Source: a virus. Taken from it: 64,000 bases of DNA. Location of the stretch: the IMG/VR virus record IMGVR_UViG_3300021511_000003, positions 62,001-126,000 of that record. One strand, 5' to 3'. The notes below the pieces were generated by a model. It did no database searches, was not told the origin of the DNA, and saw nothing but the letters and a program-made list of their open reading frames with translations. Positions 4,177-63,483 of this stretch are shown here, piece by piece. The position numbers were made by a program, and so were the translations under genes. The first letter of the stretch is position 1; each line of letters starts with the position of its first letter.

Positions 4177-4300
4177 CCTGAAAGTAGAAAATGTAATAGG
4201 TACTTGATAAAGTAAGAATTGAACTTACCGTCTTTTGCGTATAAGGCAAATACCCCACCATTGGGATTTTTTATCTGAAATCACAAATAAGTCTTTCAGG
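4177..4300 (-). ncRNA. Y-like RNA B (tRNA-like core on terminal stem)
   Basis: On the minus strand the ends CCTGAAAG and CTTTCAGG pair perfectly over 8 bp. A symmetric internal loop of about 7 nt per side follows, then a second stem. The core has a D-like arm with GG in the loop (TCCC AATGGT GGGG), a perfect 5-bp anticodon-like arm (TTTGC CTTATAC GCAAA) and a perfect T arm (GTAAG TTCAATT CTTAC). GATAAA and TTTATC can pair as a short acceptor-like helix leading into the terminal stem. No CCA follows. Same layout as RNA A and just upstream of the Ro60-like gene, which fits bacterial YrlA RNAs known to mimic tRNA. A decayed tRNA-Ile(UAU) is the alternative. Confidence 0.62.
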
Positions 4301-4417: not shown

Positions 4418-4548
4418 CCCGAAGTAGTAAGTGTATTAATTTGTCATACCACAGATGGCGTGGTAGAAGGGACTCGAACCCTATACGTTGCTTTATAAGA
4501 GCAGTGCTGAACCAATCAGCGATCAGAAAATACGTCTAAGTCTTCGGG
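4418..4548 (-). ncRNA. Y-like RNA A with circularly permuted tRNA-like domain
   Basis: On the minus strand the ends CCCGAAG and CTTCGGG pair over 7 bp, then an 8/8-nt internal loop, then GTATT/AATAC. The core reads D arm (GCTG ATTGGTT CAGC), anticodon-like arm (TGCT CTTATAA AGCA), T arm (AGGG TTCGAGT CCCT), then CTACCAC-G-CCA. Upstream sequence cannot pair with CTACCAC. Instead GTGGTAT lies just downstream and pairs over 6 bp, so the acceptor helix is capped by a loop and the tRNA fold opens at the 9/10 junction onto the terminal stem. This is the order I expect for YrlA-type Y RNAs. It starts about 85 bases into the transcript from the promoter element at 4620-4633. Confidence 0.68.
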
Positions 4549-5572: not shown

Positions 5573-8500
5573 TTACCTCGTTAACATTAATGATATAAAA
5601 TATGAATTTAATAAATCTTTTGCTGGAGATATTTTTGGTTCTTTATAACCAGCATTGCCATTTTGAATAATCTCTGCCATTATTTTATCTCTTGTTATAT
5701 AATCATCAGATAATGGACCCATAAATTCAGCTAAAACATGTGGACAATTATATGAAATAAAAGAATAAGTATCAAGTTCACCCAGTCTTTGACCTCCATC
5801 ACGTTTTTTTCCACTTGTAGGTTGTGATGTTTTACCTGTTGTTGGACCGGTACCACGTGCATATATTTTCGCTTCGCCAAGATGTTCGAGTTTTGACATA
5901 TACATATAACCAACAGCAACTTCAAAATGGGTTTTAGTATTATATTTAGGCAAGAAAAGTTTATATTTTGTTTTCAAGCCTAATACTTTCAATGATTTTT
6001 TAATCTCAGTATGACCGGGTGCTTTAAATGGTGGTATAATAATTGGATAAAAACCAGTCTTTTTAACCTGGTCAATCATTTTTACATATTGTGTTGTTGT
6101 CAAACTTGATAAATTTCTAACAAGATTTTCTGTTGCTTTTTTATTTGGTGACATATCAAGATTTACAAATACTTGTTTTATGAGTGCAATTGTTTTTGGT
6201 TTTGTCATTGTTGGTAATCGTTTACCTAATTCTCTTGCCATCAATCCACAATACATTTCATATAACTGACCCATATTCATTCTACTTAAAAGACCGAGAG
6301 GATTTAAAATTGTTTCAATGATATCACCGTTAGGAAGTCTTGGCATTAATTCATCGTTTTCAATTAGTGAGATGATTCCCTTATTGCCATACCTATTCGC
6401 TAATTTATCACCAAGTCCAACTCGTAATTCCTGTTCAATTCTAAATCTTACTAATACTCCTTTGATTGTTTCACCTTTGACCGTAAACGATTCTTTTGCT
6501 GGTTTCATTGATTTAAGATTTGTTTTTGTAATCAACTCTTTTAATTGTGGAAATAGTTCTTCATCAACATTAGAATAAACTTCAATATCAACAATTTTTC
6601 CACCAGGACTCTTTTTAATAAATTGTCCAGTAAACATATCAGTTGTTTCATCATCATCGAAACCAATAATATCTTCAATATCACCAAGAGTCTTTCTTAA
6701 TAATGGTTTTCCTTTTTCAATTTCATCACCAATTTCTGCAATATATAAAAGCCTATCATTAGGAGCAATTAATATTTCTTCTTCAATACCATGTAATGAA
6801 GTCAATTTATCCTGTTCTACAACTGATTTACTAATAACTGCACCATCTTCAAAATTATATCCATCATATGGCATAAGAGCGCATAATAACGGTCTTCCAA
6901 GTGAAATTGATCCATTAGACATACATGCACCTTCTGCAATAACATCACCCTGTTTGACGGTTTCACCCACCTTAATCAAAGGGTTAAATACACTTAATGT
7001 ATTTTTTCCAGAACCAGATTTTAAATGAACCGGTGTTATATCAATTATCTTTTTTGTTTTACCACATTGAATTGTTATTAAATCCTTATGAACAGAAGAA
7101 ATTTTACCATTACAAGGAGATTTTTTCACAAAGTTTTTTGATAAAACACCTGTTAATATTGATTCATATCCAGATTGAACAACAGGGGGTTGTGGATTTC
7201 TTAAAGGCAACATTTGTTTTGCCTGATTTGAAAGCATAATAACCCTTGCACCATCTGTATTTTCAAGGAATGGAATCATTGATGTAGTCGTTGAAAGCAT
7301 TCCACTTCCTTCATTATCTGATATATCTTTTGTTGTAAATAAACCTCGTGATGACGATATCAATGCGTCTATGGTTAACTGTTGAACAATTCCAATATTG
7401 TCACTCTCGGATGTATCAAGAGGATCAAGATTTCCAAAATATGAATTATGTAAATTACGAGCATCATTATGAATAGCTCTTTTATCAGGAATACCTCCAA
7501 CCTTTTTACCAGCAGGAGACACTCTTGTCATAGTTGACATTTCTTCAAGAGGATTTGCGTATTCCATATCAACAACTAATTCAGTCATTAAAAAATCACT
7601 TAATACTTTAGTTGGTACTATTGTTAATTTTGCTTCTGTATTGCCTGATAAAACTTGCTCTTTATATACTGTGTAAGCTGCAAGAATTTGTTTTTGTGCT
7701 AAATGGACAAGAACTTCTGAATTTCTAATTCGTTGATTACTAATATCATTTCTTGCAATATAAAACCCATCAACAACTTTTTCTGTCATATATTTCATAA
7801 TCATTTCAAGATCAGTTGGTAATTGTTTATTTAATAATACTTGCTTAGCAACAGGATCAACAATATTTTGAAGATTTGAACTAATAAGAAATGTTGAGTT
7901 TAATCTACCTGATAATTGAATTATTAAATCTTCAAAATATTTATGTGAAGCAAATTCGGCATCACTTTTATATTGTTGTACTTTACCATGAATGAATGAT
8001 TGGCATAGTTGTTTTTGTAAATCTGTTTGGACGTTTTGGAATATAATATATTTTTCGTTGTTAATTTTACATGAGAATTTTTCACTTGGTTTATTATCTG
8101 ACAATATATATTTAATATTATATTTTTTTAAGGTTTCATCAAAACCAAAACTAAACGCAAGCAAAAATATTAATGGCATTTTATAAGACATGAAAGCTTC
8201 AAGATATTTTTCACGTCTTAGCTGTTTAACATATATTCTAAAAACAGAATATGAGCTTTCAAATCTTGATTCACCTGGTGATGGAAATGTAATTGGATTT
8301 TGTACAATTTGATTGATCAAACATTTTTGTTTACCATTCAGTCGAAACACTCCAGTATCAGGATCAATTTTTGGCAACTCCATTTTTATTTCATGTTTGT
8401 TTCCAAATTCATCTGACATATTAATTGTAGCAATTGATAAATCAGATCTCATTACTTCACCCATTCTTTGAGGTTTATCAGCAAGTGTAATCCCTTCAAA

Positions 8501-15432: not shown

Positions 15433-15511
15433 TCATTGATAAAAAATACCAATGAATACCTCATGGACCTTTATGAGTTGTGGTTATAAAGATCCAATTC
15501 AAAAAATAACG

Positions 15512-15570
15512 AAACACTTATATCTTTCATTAGTTATTAATATATATAGACATGGAATATATAAGTGTTT
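15512..15570. repeat. 12-bp inverted repeat enclosing 14-mer copy 2
   Basis: AAACACTTATAT (15512-15523) and ATATAAGTGTTT (15559-15570) are perfect complements. Between them lies ATTAATATATATAG (15536-15549), identical to the other three copies. Located between the heptose kinase gene and the 492-aa gene. Confidence 0.65.
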
Positions 15571-15590: not shown

Positions 15591-16502
15591 TTATATTTTA
15601 CACACCAAATCTTTTAAGACTTGCTCAAATATTTCTTTTGGTACTGTTGTTGTGCCTGATTGTGTTACTACATAAGCAGCGCATTTATTTGCAAGAATGG
15701 CTGCTTCGTGTATAGAATAATTCATTGATAAACATAAACCCATAACAGCCACAACCGTATCACCGGCACCTGAAACATTGTAAACTTCAACGGGTTCTGA
15801 CATAATTGAATATTCTTTATTATTCAACTTATTATATAAAATCATTCCATGTTTGCCTTTTGTTTCAAGAATAAATTTTACATTTTTTAATGAATATTTA
15901 GATGATAGTTTCATGATTTTCCATTCTTTTTCATTGGGTGTAATCATGTAAGCATCATTATATAAAAAGCCATTAATTGGTTTTGGATCAACAATGATTT
16001 TTGTATTCAGAGTTTTAAGAAATTCCATTAGTTCTTTTGTAATCATTCCTTTTGCATAATCCGAAACTATAATAACATCATATACTTTTCTACAATCTTT
16101 AAGGAAAACTTCAATTGCTCTTTTTGAATCAATTTTCGAGATTGTTTCTCTATCAACTCTTAACATTTGAACTTTACGGTCATCAGCAATAATTCTTTCT
16201 TTTACAATTGTTTGTTTTGAACCGTATGAACATAAATTCTTTGCGCCTATATTATCCAATTCATTAATTATCAACCCCCCATTGATATCATTCGAAATTG
16301 AGGACATACAATCAACTTGTGCTCCGAGTTCTCTAAGATTTCTACAAACATGGCCACAACCTCCCAAAGTATAATATTCTTCTTTAACGTGAACAACAGG
16401 TACAGGAGCTTCTGGGCATATTCTTTCAACTTTACCTATAATATATTTGTCAAGCATTATATCGCCAACAACTAAAACTTTCACATGACCAGTTTCTTTC
16501 AT
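15591..16502 (-). CDS. hldA: D-glycero-beta-D-manno-heptose-7-phosphate kinase-like (PfkB family)
   Basis: A 303-aa kinase-only homologue of the HldE/RfaE N-terminal domain. The opening VLVVGDIMLDKYIIGKVERICPEAP and the sugar-site block LGGCGHVCRNLRELGA match that family. Near the C-terminus NVSGAGDTVVA is the PfkB signature 2 with the catalytic Asp. The cytidylyltransferase domain is absent. ATG 16502 has AAGGCGG before it. The leader carries a c-di-GMP riboswitch and a terminator. The enzyme would supply heptose precursors for LPS or glycan decoration. Other PfkB sugar kinases are a less likely reading. Confidence 0.85.
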   Translation of the reverse strand: MKETGHVKVLVVGDIMLDKYIIGKVERICPEAPVPVVHVKEEYYTLGGCGHVCRNLRELGAQVDCMSSISNDINGGLIINELDNIGAKNLCSYGSKQTIVKERIIADDRKVQMLRVDRETISKIDSKRAIEVFLKDCRKVYDVIIVSDYAKGMITKELMEFLKTLNTKIIVDPKPINGFLYNDAYMITPNEKEWKIMKLSSKYSLKNVKFILETKGKHGMILYNKLNNKEYSIMSEPVEVYNVSGAGDTVVAVMGLCLSMNYSIHEAAILANKCAAYVVTQSGTTTVPKEIFEQVLKDLVCKI

Positions 16503-16531
16503 ATACACCGCCTTTTTAAAATTTTCGTGGC

Positions 16532-16557
16532 AAAAAAGAGTATCGAACTCATTTTTT
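16532..16557 (-). terminator. Intrinsic terminator, riboswitch expression platform
   Basis: On the minus strand AAAAAA-T-GAGT pairs with ACTC-TTTTTT across a 5-base loop and ends in a run of six U. It lies between the aptamer and the kinase start, as expected for transcription control. Confidence 0.7.
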
Positions 16558-16562
16558 GTAAA

Positions 16563-16646
16563 GTGTGAGAGAGGTAATTCCGCTATCCCATAAGGACCGG
16601 TGATTTTGCGTCCTAACCTTGCGGTTAGTTTGCCTTTTTCTCTCTT
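16563..16646 (-). promoter_or_regulatory. Cyclic-di-GMP-I (GEMM-I) riboswitch aptamer
   Basis: The minus strand carries the class signature in order: GGCAAAC, a stem capped by a GCAA tetraloop (CTAACC/GGTTAG), GGACGCAAA, ACCGGTCCT, GGGATAGCGG and AATTACC, with a GAGAG/CTCTC closing stem. The base just before CAAAC is G, the residue that in Vc2 recognises c-di-GMP; cGAMP-selective variants have A, as I recall. The aptamer starts about 6 bases after the predicted start site of a phage-type promoter, and a terminator follows. It should gate the heptose kinase gene. Confidence 0.88.
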
Positions 16647-16653
16647 AATTTTA

Positions 16654-16669
16654 CATTATGTTCCAATTG
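16654..16669 (-). promoter_or_regulatory. AACA-type phage promoter element (riboswitch leader)
   Basis: Minus strand CAATTGGAACATAATG, then AA at the expected start site (about 16652). It drives the riboswitch RNA separately from the exported-protein genes upstream. Confidence 0.55.
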
Positions 16670-16683
16670 TAAATTGTATAATC

Positions 16684-17421
16684 TTACAGTTCATTCAACA
16701 TTTTCTGAATTTCGGCATTTACGAAAGCATTACCTTGCAACCAAGGACGATCTTCTGGACCAGCGGATCCACCGGATATTCCGGTACCACCAGTTGCAAT
16801 TGATGTATCAGAGGCCTTGGCATATGAAAAACCAATACCCCATCCGAATGCTTCAATTTTACGATGGGCACCTTCAGCTTTAAATACAAGCACATTGGCA
16901 CCGTTTTGCATGGCTTTCAGAGCCATTGCTCCAACTAATTGTACTGAGTTGGTTTTCCCGTTTTTGGCAGTACCGTTGATAAAAGCGACATGCGTTCCGG
17001 TGTTTTTAATTCCCTTAATACGATCAGGGTCGATTACAAGCAGGATACGACGATCATTTTTTTCACGTCCATTAACGCATTTTTCGGGGTTCACTTCAGC
17101 ATATGTAATACGGGTCTCCCCCCATTTAGCCATATTTTCAAGGGCACCTTCGGAAAAGACTTTTCCAAATTCGAGAATGTTTTTGATTGTAACGAAATCG
17201 CCATCCGGAGTCGGTGTAGTGAACCATCCGGGTTGACCAGGAATCGGAACGGAACCGGCATTCGGGAAGGCACGGTCAGTAGCTTCGTATGTATTTATAC
17301 TGTGATCATCAATGGATGCAGTAACATCATCGACATTTGCTTCGGATGTTGTATCCGCCATTGCGGGTATATAAAATGCAACAAAAACAAGGCTCATCAT
17401 AATTACAATAATCTTTTTCAT
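16684..17421 (-). CDS. Secreted protein, unknown, 245 aa
   Basis: Signal peptide MKKIIVIMMSLVFVAFYIPAMA with likely cleavage before DTTSE. The mature part contains GTHVAFINGTAKNGKTNSVQLV and a Gly-rich ATGGTGISGGSAGPEDRPW stretch near the end. The gene is clearly richer in G and C than its neighbours, suggesting recent transfer from a bacterium. Function unknown; periplasmic or outer-membrane location likely. Confidence 0.8.
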   Translation of the reverse strand: MKKIIVIMMSLVFVAFYIPAMADTTSEANVDDVTASIDDHSINTYEATDRAFPNAGSVPIPGQPGWFTTPTPDGDFVTIKNILEFGKVFSEGALENMAKWGETRITYAEVNPEKCVNGREKNDRRILLVIDPDRIKGIKNTGTHVAFINGTAKNGKTNSVQLVGAMALKAMQNGANVLVFKAEGAHRKIEAFGWGIGFSYAKASDTSIATGGTGISGGSAGPEDRPWLQGNAFVNAEIQKMLNEL

Positions 17422-62196: not shown

Positions 62197-63483
62197 ATGT
62201 TAGTTGAGTCGAAACGTGGAATTTGGAGAGAAGACACAATTCAAAGAGATATATTACCAATACCCTCACAAATTATGCGACAATTTGGTATCTCTGCCGA
62301 AAATGCAAAACATGTATTGAAATTAGAAGATTTAAGAAAAACACCACCTAATATTATTATTGCTGAAGCAAAAAAGACTTTTGGTTTTATGCAAAATTAT
62401 TTCAGTAGACAACAATTAAAAAAGAAACAAAAATATGTAATGGGACTTGGTGTTTTCCAACAACTTTTTAAAGATAGAAAAAATAAAAAAATTAAGTTGT
62501 TGAAAGCTACAGTACCAAAATTTAAAAATGTTTATAAGCCATATATTGGTCAGGATATAACTGACAAAACTATTCTTGTATTCCGAACTGGAGGAATAGG
62601 TGATCTTCTATTTATTCAACCCAATCTAATATATTTAAAAAACAAATATCCCACATGCAAAATCAAATTTGCCTGTGGTCCGCAATATCAACCTATGGTA
62701 AATAATTGGCCTTGTGTTGATGAAGTTTTAGAGTTACCATTCTTATTTAAACATATGATAAAGTCAGATTATCATATGTTATTTGAAGGTGTTATTGAAA
62801 GGTGTGAAGAAGCAAGAACGGTAAATTCTTACCATCTTTTTACACGATGGCTTGGGTTAAATTTACCAGATAATTTACTTATCCCAAGACAAGATCCGAA
62901 AACAGAACTTATTGATAAATGTTTTAATATATTAACAGAATGGGGGATTGTGAATAAATCATTTGTATTGATGCAGTTACGTGCAAGTTCTCCCATTAGA
63001 ACTCCAACACATGAATTTTGGGTTAAAATTATAGACGAACTGAATGAGAGAGGTCACTATGTTGTTTTAACTGATAGCCCAAGACAATCAGAAAAAATTG
63101 ATGAATTTATTAAAATGTTGAAAAAACCAGAAATGATATTTAACTTTTGTAAACATTCAAAATCTATTGCTTATACAATTGCTCTTACTAAATTAAGTAA
63201 ATGTGTTTACGCTACAGATTCAGCATTGATGCATATTGCTGCATCTATGGATATAAAATGTTTTGGCGTATTCGGGCCATTCCCTGGTTATATTAGATTG
63301 AGTACATATCCTTATGCCTCTTGGGTTGATGCAAAAAGAAAGTGCTCACCATGCTGGATTCATTCACATAAACCTTGTCCACAATCGAAAGATGGTTATA
63401 GTCCCTGTTATGATGAACTTGTAAATACTGATGATAAATTGAAAAAAGTCATTGATAAATTTGAGGATTTATTAAACAGATGA
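62197..63483 (+). CDS. GT9 (ADP-heptose-transferase-like) glycosyltransferase
   Basis: 428 aa. TILVFRTGGIGDLLFIQPNL (acceptor-side N-terminus), VLMQLRASSPIRTPTHEFW, and donor-site CVYATDSALMHIAASMDIKCFGVFGP are family 9 blocks. It adds a Cys-rich C-terminal segment (CSPCWIHSHKPCPQ). The first 110 residues are extra. With the HldA-like kinase it suggests heptose handling by the phage, possibly to alter host LPS or a phage glycan. Confidence 0.8.
   Translation: MLVESKRGIWREDTIQRDILPIPSQIMRQFGISAENAKHVLKLEDLRKTPPNIIIAEAKKTFGFMQNYFSRQQLKKKQKYVMGLGVFQQLFKDRKNKKIKLLKATVPKFKNVYKPYIGQDITDKTILVFRTGGIGDLLFIQPNLIYLKNKYPTCKIKFACGPQYQPMVNNWPCVDEVLELPFLFKHMIKSDYHMLFEGVIERCEEARTVNSYHLFTRWLGLNLPDNLLIPRQDPKTELIDKCFNILTEWGIVNKSFVLMQLRASSPIRTPTHEFWVKIIDELNERGHYVVLTDSPRQSEKIDEFIKMLKKPEMIFNFCKHSKSIAYTIALTKLSKCVYATDSALMHIAASMDIKCFGVFGPFPGYIRLSTYPYASWVDAKRKCSPCWIHSHKPCPQSKDGYSPCYDELVNTDDKLKKVIDKFEDLLNR

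Follow-up and report, generated by a model that had tools for sequence, protein, structure and literature searches.

A predicted class I c-di-GMP riboswitch between a phage-type promoter and a heptose-kinase gene in a jumbo phage

In the DNA of a jumbo phage, a complete class I c-di-GMP (GEMM-I) aptamer occupies the leader of a gene for a heptose-7-phosphate kinase-like protein, behind a candidate phage promoter (Table 1). Taken as a whole, the explanation that we consider probable sees in this leader a canonical class I c-di-GMP riboswitch that controls the phage heptose-7-phosphate kinase, is transcribed from a phage-polymerase promoter and serves ADP-heptose remodelling. The aptamer and its contact bases, the promoter motif, the gene family, the partner genes and the lack of a GEMM-I in the retrieved relatives were computed from the analysed window, a stretch of 64,000 nucleotides (bases 62001–126000 of a 223,015-base (223 kb) virus record), from the whole record and from related contigs. 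The record encodes a Gp23-like major capsid protein, a T4-like portal, a prohead protease, DnaB and baseplate proteins; it comes from a tailed jumbo phage and is no piece of host DNA. RNA polymerase β and β′ genes are present in two sets, one adjoining the kinase gene and the other elsewhere in the record. Two tRNA-like Rfam matches in the window (4205–4275 and 4466–4524), one of them strong (47.5 bits), are without an ARAGORN call, and comparable matches are also seen in the related contigs L028 and L030.

Table 1. Features of the kinase leader and of related genes, in window coordinates
Feature	Position	Strand	Basis
Putative phage late-type promoter	16651..16666	minus	matrix score, AR9 spacing, presence before kinase orthologues
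Class I c-di-GMP (GEMM-I) aptamer	16569..16643	minus	RF03167, RF01051, contact bases
Aptamer P1	16644-16639 with 16572-16567	minus	
Aptamer P2	16628-16613	minus	
Aptamer P3	16600-16580	minus	
Weak hairpin with U6, possible attenuator	16532..16557	minus	sequence, folding
Shine-Dalgarno region AAGGCGGUG	16506..16514	minus	sequence; partly paired in predicted fold
HldE N-domain-like heptose-7-phosphate kinase	15591..16502	minus	TIGR02198, PF00294, PDB 4e84, relatives' alignment
GT9 (heptosyltransferase-family) protein	62197..63483	plus	PF01075 40.1 bits, over cut-off, record bases 124902-125282

The leader contains a complete GEMM-I aptamer

In a cmscan search, the whole RF03167 model (c-di-GMP-I-GGC) matched the minus strand from 16643 to 16569 (65.2 bits, E = 3.7e-13; gathering cut-off 59 bits). 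RF01051 (c-di-GMP-I), the family named in the original prediction, matched over model positions 1–87 of 87 (61.7 bits, E = 9.8e-13; gathering cut-off 35 bits), and an RF01051 search of the 223,015-base record returned this copy only. All the landmarks of the GEMM-I signature that had been read by eye from the letters are indeed present on the minus strand, namely GGCAAAC (16634–16628), the P2 hairpin CCGCAAGG, GGACGCAAA, CCGGTCCT, GATAGCGG and TTACC (16577–16573), and both the GNRA tetraloop and its receptor are intact. In the Vc2 aptamer, the ligand is contacted by G20, A47 and C92, and the contacting G and A, 27 nt apart in Vc2, have an equal spacing in Vc1 (G12, A39) and Bc1 (G11, A38) (PMC4744006, PMC11218506). 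Mapping by this shared spacing places the G20 equivalent at 16634 and the A47 equivalent at 16607, again 27 nt apart, with the C92 equivalent within TTACC. So mapped, the contact bases are canonical for a class I c-di-GMP aptamer and, because they are, the predicted ligand is c-di-GMP rather than cGAMP.

The aptamer was most likely gained in this phage, between a promoter and a gene that relatives share

Related contigs were collected by scans with the RNA polymerase β subunit and a kinase profile; in the viral collection, the kinase alone retrieved no relative and a three-member profile retrieved 22 loci. The kinase lies at the same place in L028/L151 and L030/L152, with 61% and 57% identity, respectively, and an AACA promoter precedes the kinase orthologues of five related lineages (L151, L152, L153, L154/L172 and L170). 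In L153, L154/L172 and L170 this promoter is followed by short leaders, and in L028/L151 and L030/L152 a strong hairpin with a U-tract runs from the predicted first transcribed base in place of the aptamer (−30.9 kcal/mol in L028; −18.3 kcal/mol in L030, including a second short stem). The distant kinase loci L155, L157 and L158 are without a good match to the AACA motif. No GEMM-I was found in any related contig examined or in the RF01051 control genomes, and the same search recovered the window's own copy; the aptamer-bearing leader has thus far been seen in a single phage. Across the relatives, promoter and kinase gene are conserved and the intervening DNA is variable. Since the relatives have the promoter and the gene without GEMM-I, the aptamer was most likely gained in this phage between the two. 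The leader ending ACTCTTTTTT(T)G is common to the phage and L030, so the weak hairpin now following the aptamer may be a remnant of an older leader hairpin. It is puzzling that in L028 (1614–1685) and L030 (3794–3840) the predicted late start coincides with the first base of a terminator-like hairpin and U-tract before the kinase.

With regard to its source, nothing in the annotated phage collection matched the aptamer DNA well. An exact pattern of the aptamer core has 51 matches among bacterial genomes, almost all in records titled as Proteobacteria and mainly Beta- and Gammaproteobacteria; because an exact pattern is selective, these matches may give only a hint of donor or host. The closest bacterial aptamer found, from Aromatoleum, is ~61% identical. 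Among viral contigs, a variable-gap GEMM pattern gave at least 119 matches, mostly chance occurrences in coding sequence, and only about 17 contigs carry a plausible real GEMM-I, mostly from the fixed-length pattern and confirmed with Rfam.

Elsewhere in the viral collection, further GEMM-I aptamers lie close to lysis or envelope genes. In one phage contig (L016, 10088–11700), the aptamer is directly 5′ of a likely lysis cassette comprising a holin with three transmembrane segments (PF11351) and a peptidase M15, and in two others (L012, 653–740; L017, 5998–6085) it stands ahead of a gene for a secreted RlpA-like lytic transglycosylase (DPBB). In four temperate-phage-like contigs (L004, L006, L008 and L015), the aptamer faces the 3′ side of an opposite-strand Cro/C1-type repressor gene, an arrangement that possibly ties c-di-GMP to the lysogeny region. 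A further contig, L081, has a GEMM-I-like aptamer (6390–6516; found by pattern alone, without Rfam) ahead of the gene for a secreted LPXTG-like surface protein, after which comes an amidase gene. The surface-protein gene is open only if TAG encodes an amino acid (seven TAG codons, read as Q), and L081 is a code-altered phage in which a c-di-GMP riboswitch is probable.

An AACA-type promoter precedes the aptamer

A TTAGAACAWAAT-type motif recurs upstream of the phage's genes. Trained without the kinase site, the motif reads TTAGAACAWAAW.. followed by AA, and the held-out kinase site scores 14.5 with this matrix, the best site in the phage scoring 25.2. Sites scoring at least 14 are enriched between genes (33 of 62, against an intergenic share of 15% of the genome), and the reversed sequence yields 7 such sites, compared with 62 in the real phage DNA. 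At the kinase, AACA (16662–16659) is followed on the minus strand by a 6-nt spacer and AA (16652–16651). Late promoters of phage AR9, which a non-virion polymerase of the phage reads, have the form AACA-6N-TA/G with the start at the last base (PMC5312081); applied to the AACA site, this spacing predicts a transcription start at 16651, 7 nt ahead of P1. The held-out score, the intergenic enrichment and the presence before kinase orthologues thus uphold the AACA-type promoter that had been proposed ahead of the aptamer, and it is probably the multisubunit polymerase of the phage that transcribes the leader from this late-type promoter. Most AACA leaders are short (26 of 36 are at most 70 nt), and tRNA genes lie in several that are longer. 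The kinase leader measures ~149 nt from the predicted start to the ATG and is strongly structured.

The resemblance to AR9 comprises AACA, the 6-nt spacer and a predicted purine start; both phages also have AT-rich promoters of an early type, and each has two polymerase sets. A second enriched motif in the present phage, CTATATATATTA, resembles AR9 early promoters, and two promoter classes together with two polymerase sets fit a two-polymerase strategy. The phages differ in that the consensus here has mostly A, not T, before the start, the kinase site itself having AA in place of T-purine, and in that the RNA polymerase subunits adjoining the kinase are unsplit. Downstream of the kinase gene (15503–15565), an early-type promoter (CTATATATATTAAT at 15549, minus strand) lies inside a terminator-like hairpin with arms AACACTTATAT ... 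ATATAAGTGTT and a T-run, and L028 (3430–3490) is arranged alike; here, transcripts arriving from upstream would stop, and those begun inside the hairpin would escape.

The leader downstream of the aptamer suggests two candidate sites of control

The hairpin that follows the aptamer begins 9 nt past P1, without overlapping it, and has the sequence A6-UGAGU-UCGAU-ACUC-U6 from 16557 to 16532 (AAAAAAUGAGU-UCGAU-ACUC-UUUUUU). The original prediction had called a U-run terminator before the kinase start: the U-run is there, as U6, but the hairpin is weak (−4.5 to −6.8 kcal/mol by folding). Nor does folding lend support to ligand-dependent termination, since constrained folding predicts the hairpin alike in ligand-like, free and P1-less ensembles, with no P1-dependent change, and mutually exclusive bound and unbound structures were not clearly seen in the folded leader. 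Two candidate switching pairings were rejected by constrained folding, namely the P1 3′ strand as a strong antiterminator, which left the terminator unchanged, and a GGCAAA:UUUGCC pairing with the U-tract, which was ~10 kcal/mol worse than the bound fold. For the Shine-Dalgarno region, mean exposure in a 155-nt transcript was 0.29 with P1 versus 0.60 without it, a difference that is gone when more coding sequence is included. In general terms, we favour attenuation at the hairpin and/or the Shine-Dalgarno site. The class I aptamer Vc1 regulates without a recognisable platform (PMC4744006).

The gene behind the aptamer encodes an HldE-like heptose-7-phosphate kinase

TIGR02198 (RfaE domain I) is by far the best family for the kinase and matches at full length (250 bits, E = 2.9e-74); as this score is below the equivalog cut-off of 345, the protein is classified as HldE-like only. 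It also matches PF00294 (PfkB fold; E = 1.8e-24) and the heptose-7-phosphate kinase of PDB entry 4e84 (E = 8.5e-39), and the catalytic GAGD motif is present as NVSGAGDT in the kinase and its relatives. Best family, structural match and motif together support the heptose-kinase identity given in the original prediction. The ATG at 16502 is the likely start, because the GTG listed at 16508 shares bases with the Shine-Dalgarno region and the relatives start at the ATG.

Partner genes are found elsewhere in the phage, including the adenylyltransferase half of HldE (RfaE domain II; 180.7 bits, E = 1.8e-54) and genes for a KdsA-like synthase and a KdsB-like cytidylyltransferase; the GT9 protein is a possible user of the product of the kinase pathway. 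The large sugar-modification region at ~126000–165000 of the record (L023, L024) holds glycosyltransferases, two sulfotransferase-family proteins and a UDP-sulfoquinovose synthase-like enzyme together with the KdsA-like, KdsB-like and RfaE-II genes. No GmhA-like gene was found in the phage, so the pathway would rely on heptose-7-phosphate from the host. Likewise, no GGDEF or EAL gene, which would indicate a phage-encoded c-di-GMP enzyme, was found in the phage record. From the phage sugar genes and the absence of GmhA-like, GGDEF and EAL genes, we infer that the host is Gram-negative and that its heptose-7-phosphate and its c-di-GMP would be used. Heptose synthesis is relevant to phages, as mutation of hldE altered LPS in Erwinia amylovora and made it resistant to several phages (PMC13101476).

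Proposed mechanism and alternatives

In the mechanism that we propose, the phage multisubunit RNA polymerase would start the leader at 16651 from the AACA-type late promoter, and host c-di-GMP would bind the aptamer and alter the amount of kinase. The most likely routes for this are the hairpin with its U-tract close to the promoter, the Shine-Dalgarno site with its partial pairing, or both. Together with the phage HldE adenylyltransferase half, the kinase would make ADP-heptose, which, according to the state of the host, would go into remodelling of the host LPS inner core under phage direction or into some other heptosylation. As the phage record is without its own GGDEF or EAL gene, it is a fair inference that the phage senses the sessile or motile state of the host. 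More tentatively, such a riboswitch, carried in RNA made by the jumbo phage's own polymerase, may tie late-infection remodelling of the LPS inner core through ADP-heptose to a sessile or motile host, the aptamer having been inserted between a pre-existing promoter and a leader hairpin; this fuller reading is possible, if somewhat doubtful.

Three other explanations were weighed. The aptamer may bind c-di-GMP with little regulatory effect, as a piece of captured bacterial DNA flanked by a functional promoter and by a hairpin that is always read through, and both the lack of visible P1–hairpin coupling in folding and the existence of relatives that do without the aptamer are in keeping with this. 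We nevertheless regard it as unlikely, given that core, contact bases and tetraloop/receptor are intact in spite of the divergence from the nearest bacterial aptamer found, and that the aptamer is placed precisely between promoter and kinase gene. Less likely still is that host RNA polymerase or read-through from upstream makes the leader and that the AACA motif is not a working promoter here: an upstream gene (16684–17421) does lie on the same strand close to the leader, and the kinase site is a moderate match to the motif, yet in five other lineages AACA still precedes the kinase, with DNA from motif to gene that varies.

A ligand other than c-di-GMP, such as 3′,3′-cGAMP or a different dinucleotide (compare GEMM-Ib and the GGC variant), seems very improbable, although RF03167 scores slightly above RF01051. 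Aptamers of the cGAMP-selective GEMM-Ib type have A at position 20 (PMC6456294), and the G at 16634 led us to reject this assignment. The RF03167 consensus has G at the A47 position (GGACGCGAA), to which the name "GGC" presumably refers, whereas the phage sequence has A there (GGACGCAAA), and the GGC variant was rejected at this base despite its higher score.

Comparison with known systems

If the c-di-GMP riboswitch acts as proposed, a large phage would tune an auxiliary LPS gene by reading the biofilm/motile second messenger of its host with no need of a sensor protein. The element would, moreover, be used with a phage-encoded multisubunit polymerase, a test of whether such polymerases respond to hairpin-controlled attenuation, and the aptamer-free related phages offer a natural before/after comparison. 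In the open literature we found no jumbo phage described as carrying a c-di-GMP riboswitch, most subscription papers lying beyond the search. Riboswitches have been called rare in phages, and methylophage Melnitz carries a glutamine riboswitch on ssrA (PMC9004378), which likewise acts on the phage's own gene and differs in ligand and target. Compared with Vc2 of Vibrio cholerae (RF01051), the present element shares the whole aptamer, the contact bases, the GNRA tetraloop/receptor and the 5′ leader position; it differs in residing in a jumbo phage behind a phage-type promoter, in preceding a heptose-kinase gene and in having no recognisable platform. Another phage-borne class I c-di-GMP riboswitch belongs to the lysis module of phiCD119, a C. 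difficile phage, and of prophages related to it (PMC3649979); that phage is temperate, whereas the present one is large, has its own multisubunit polymerases and carries the aptamer ahead of an LPS-sugar gene. GEMM-I on phages was thus already known, and what is new is its setting in a jumbo phage, with a phage-polymerase-type promoter and an LPS-core target gene.
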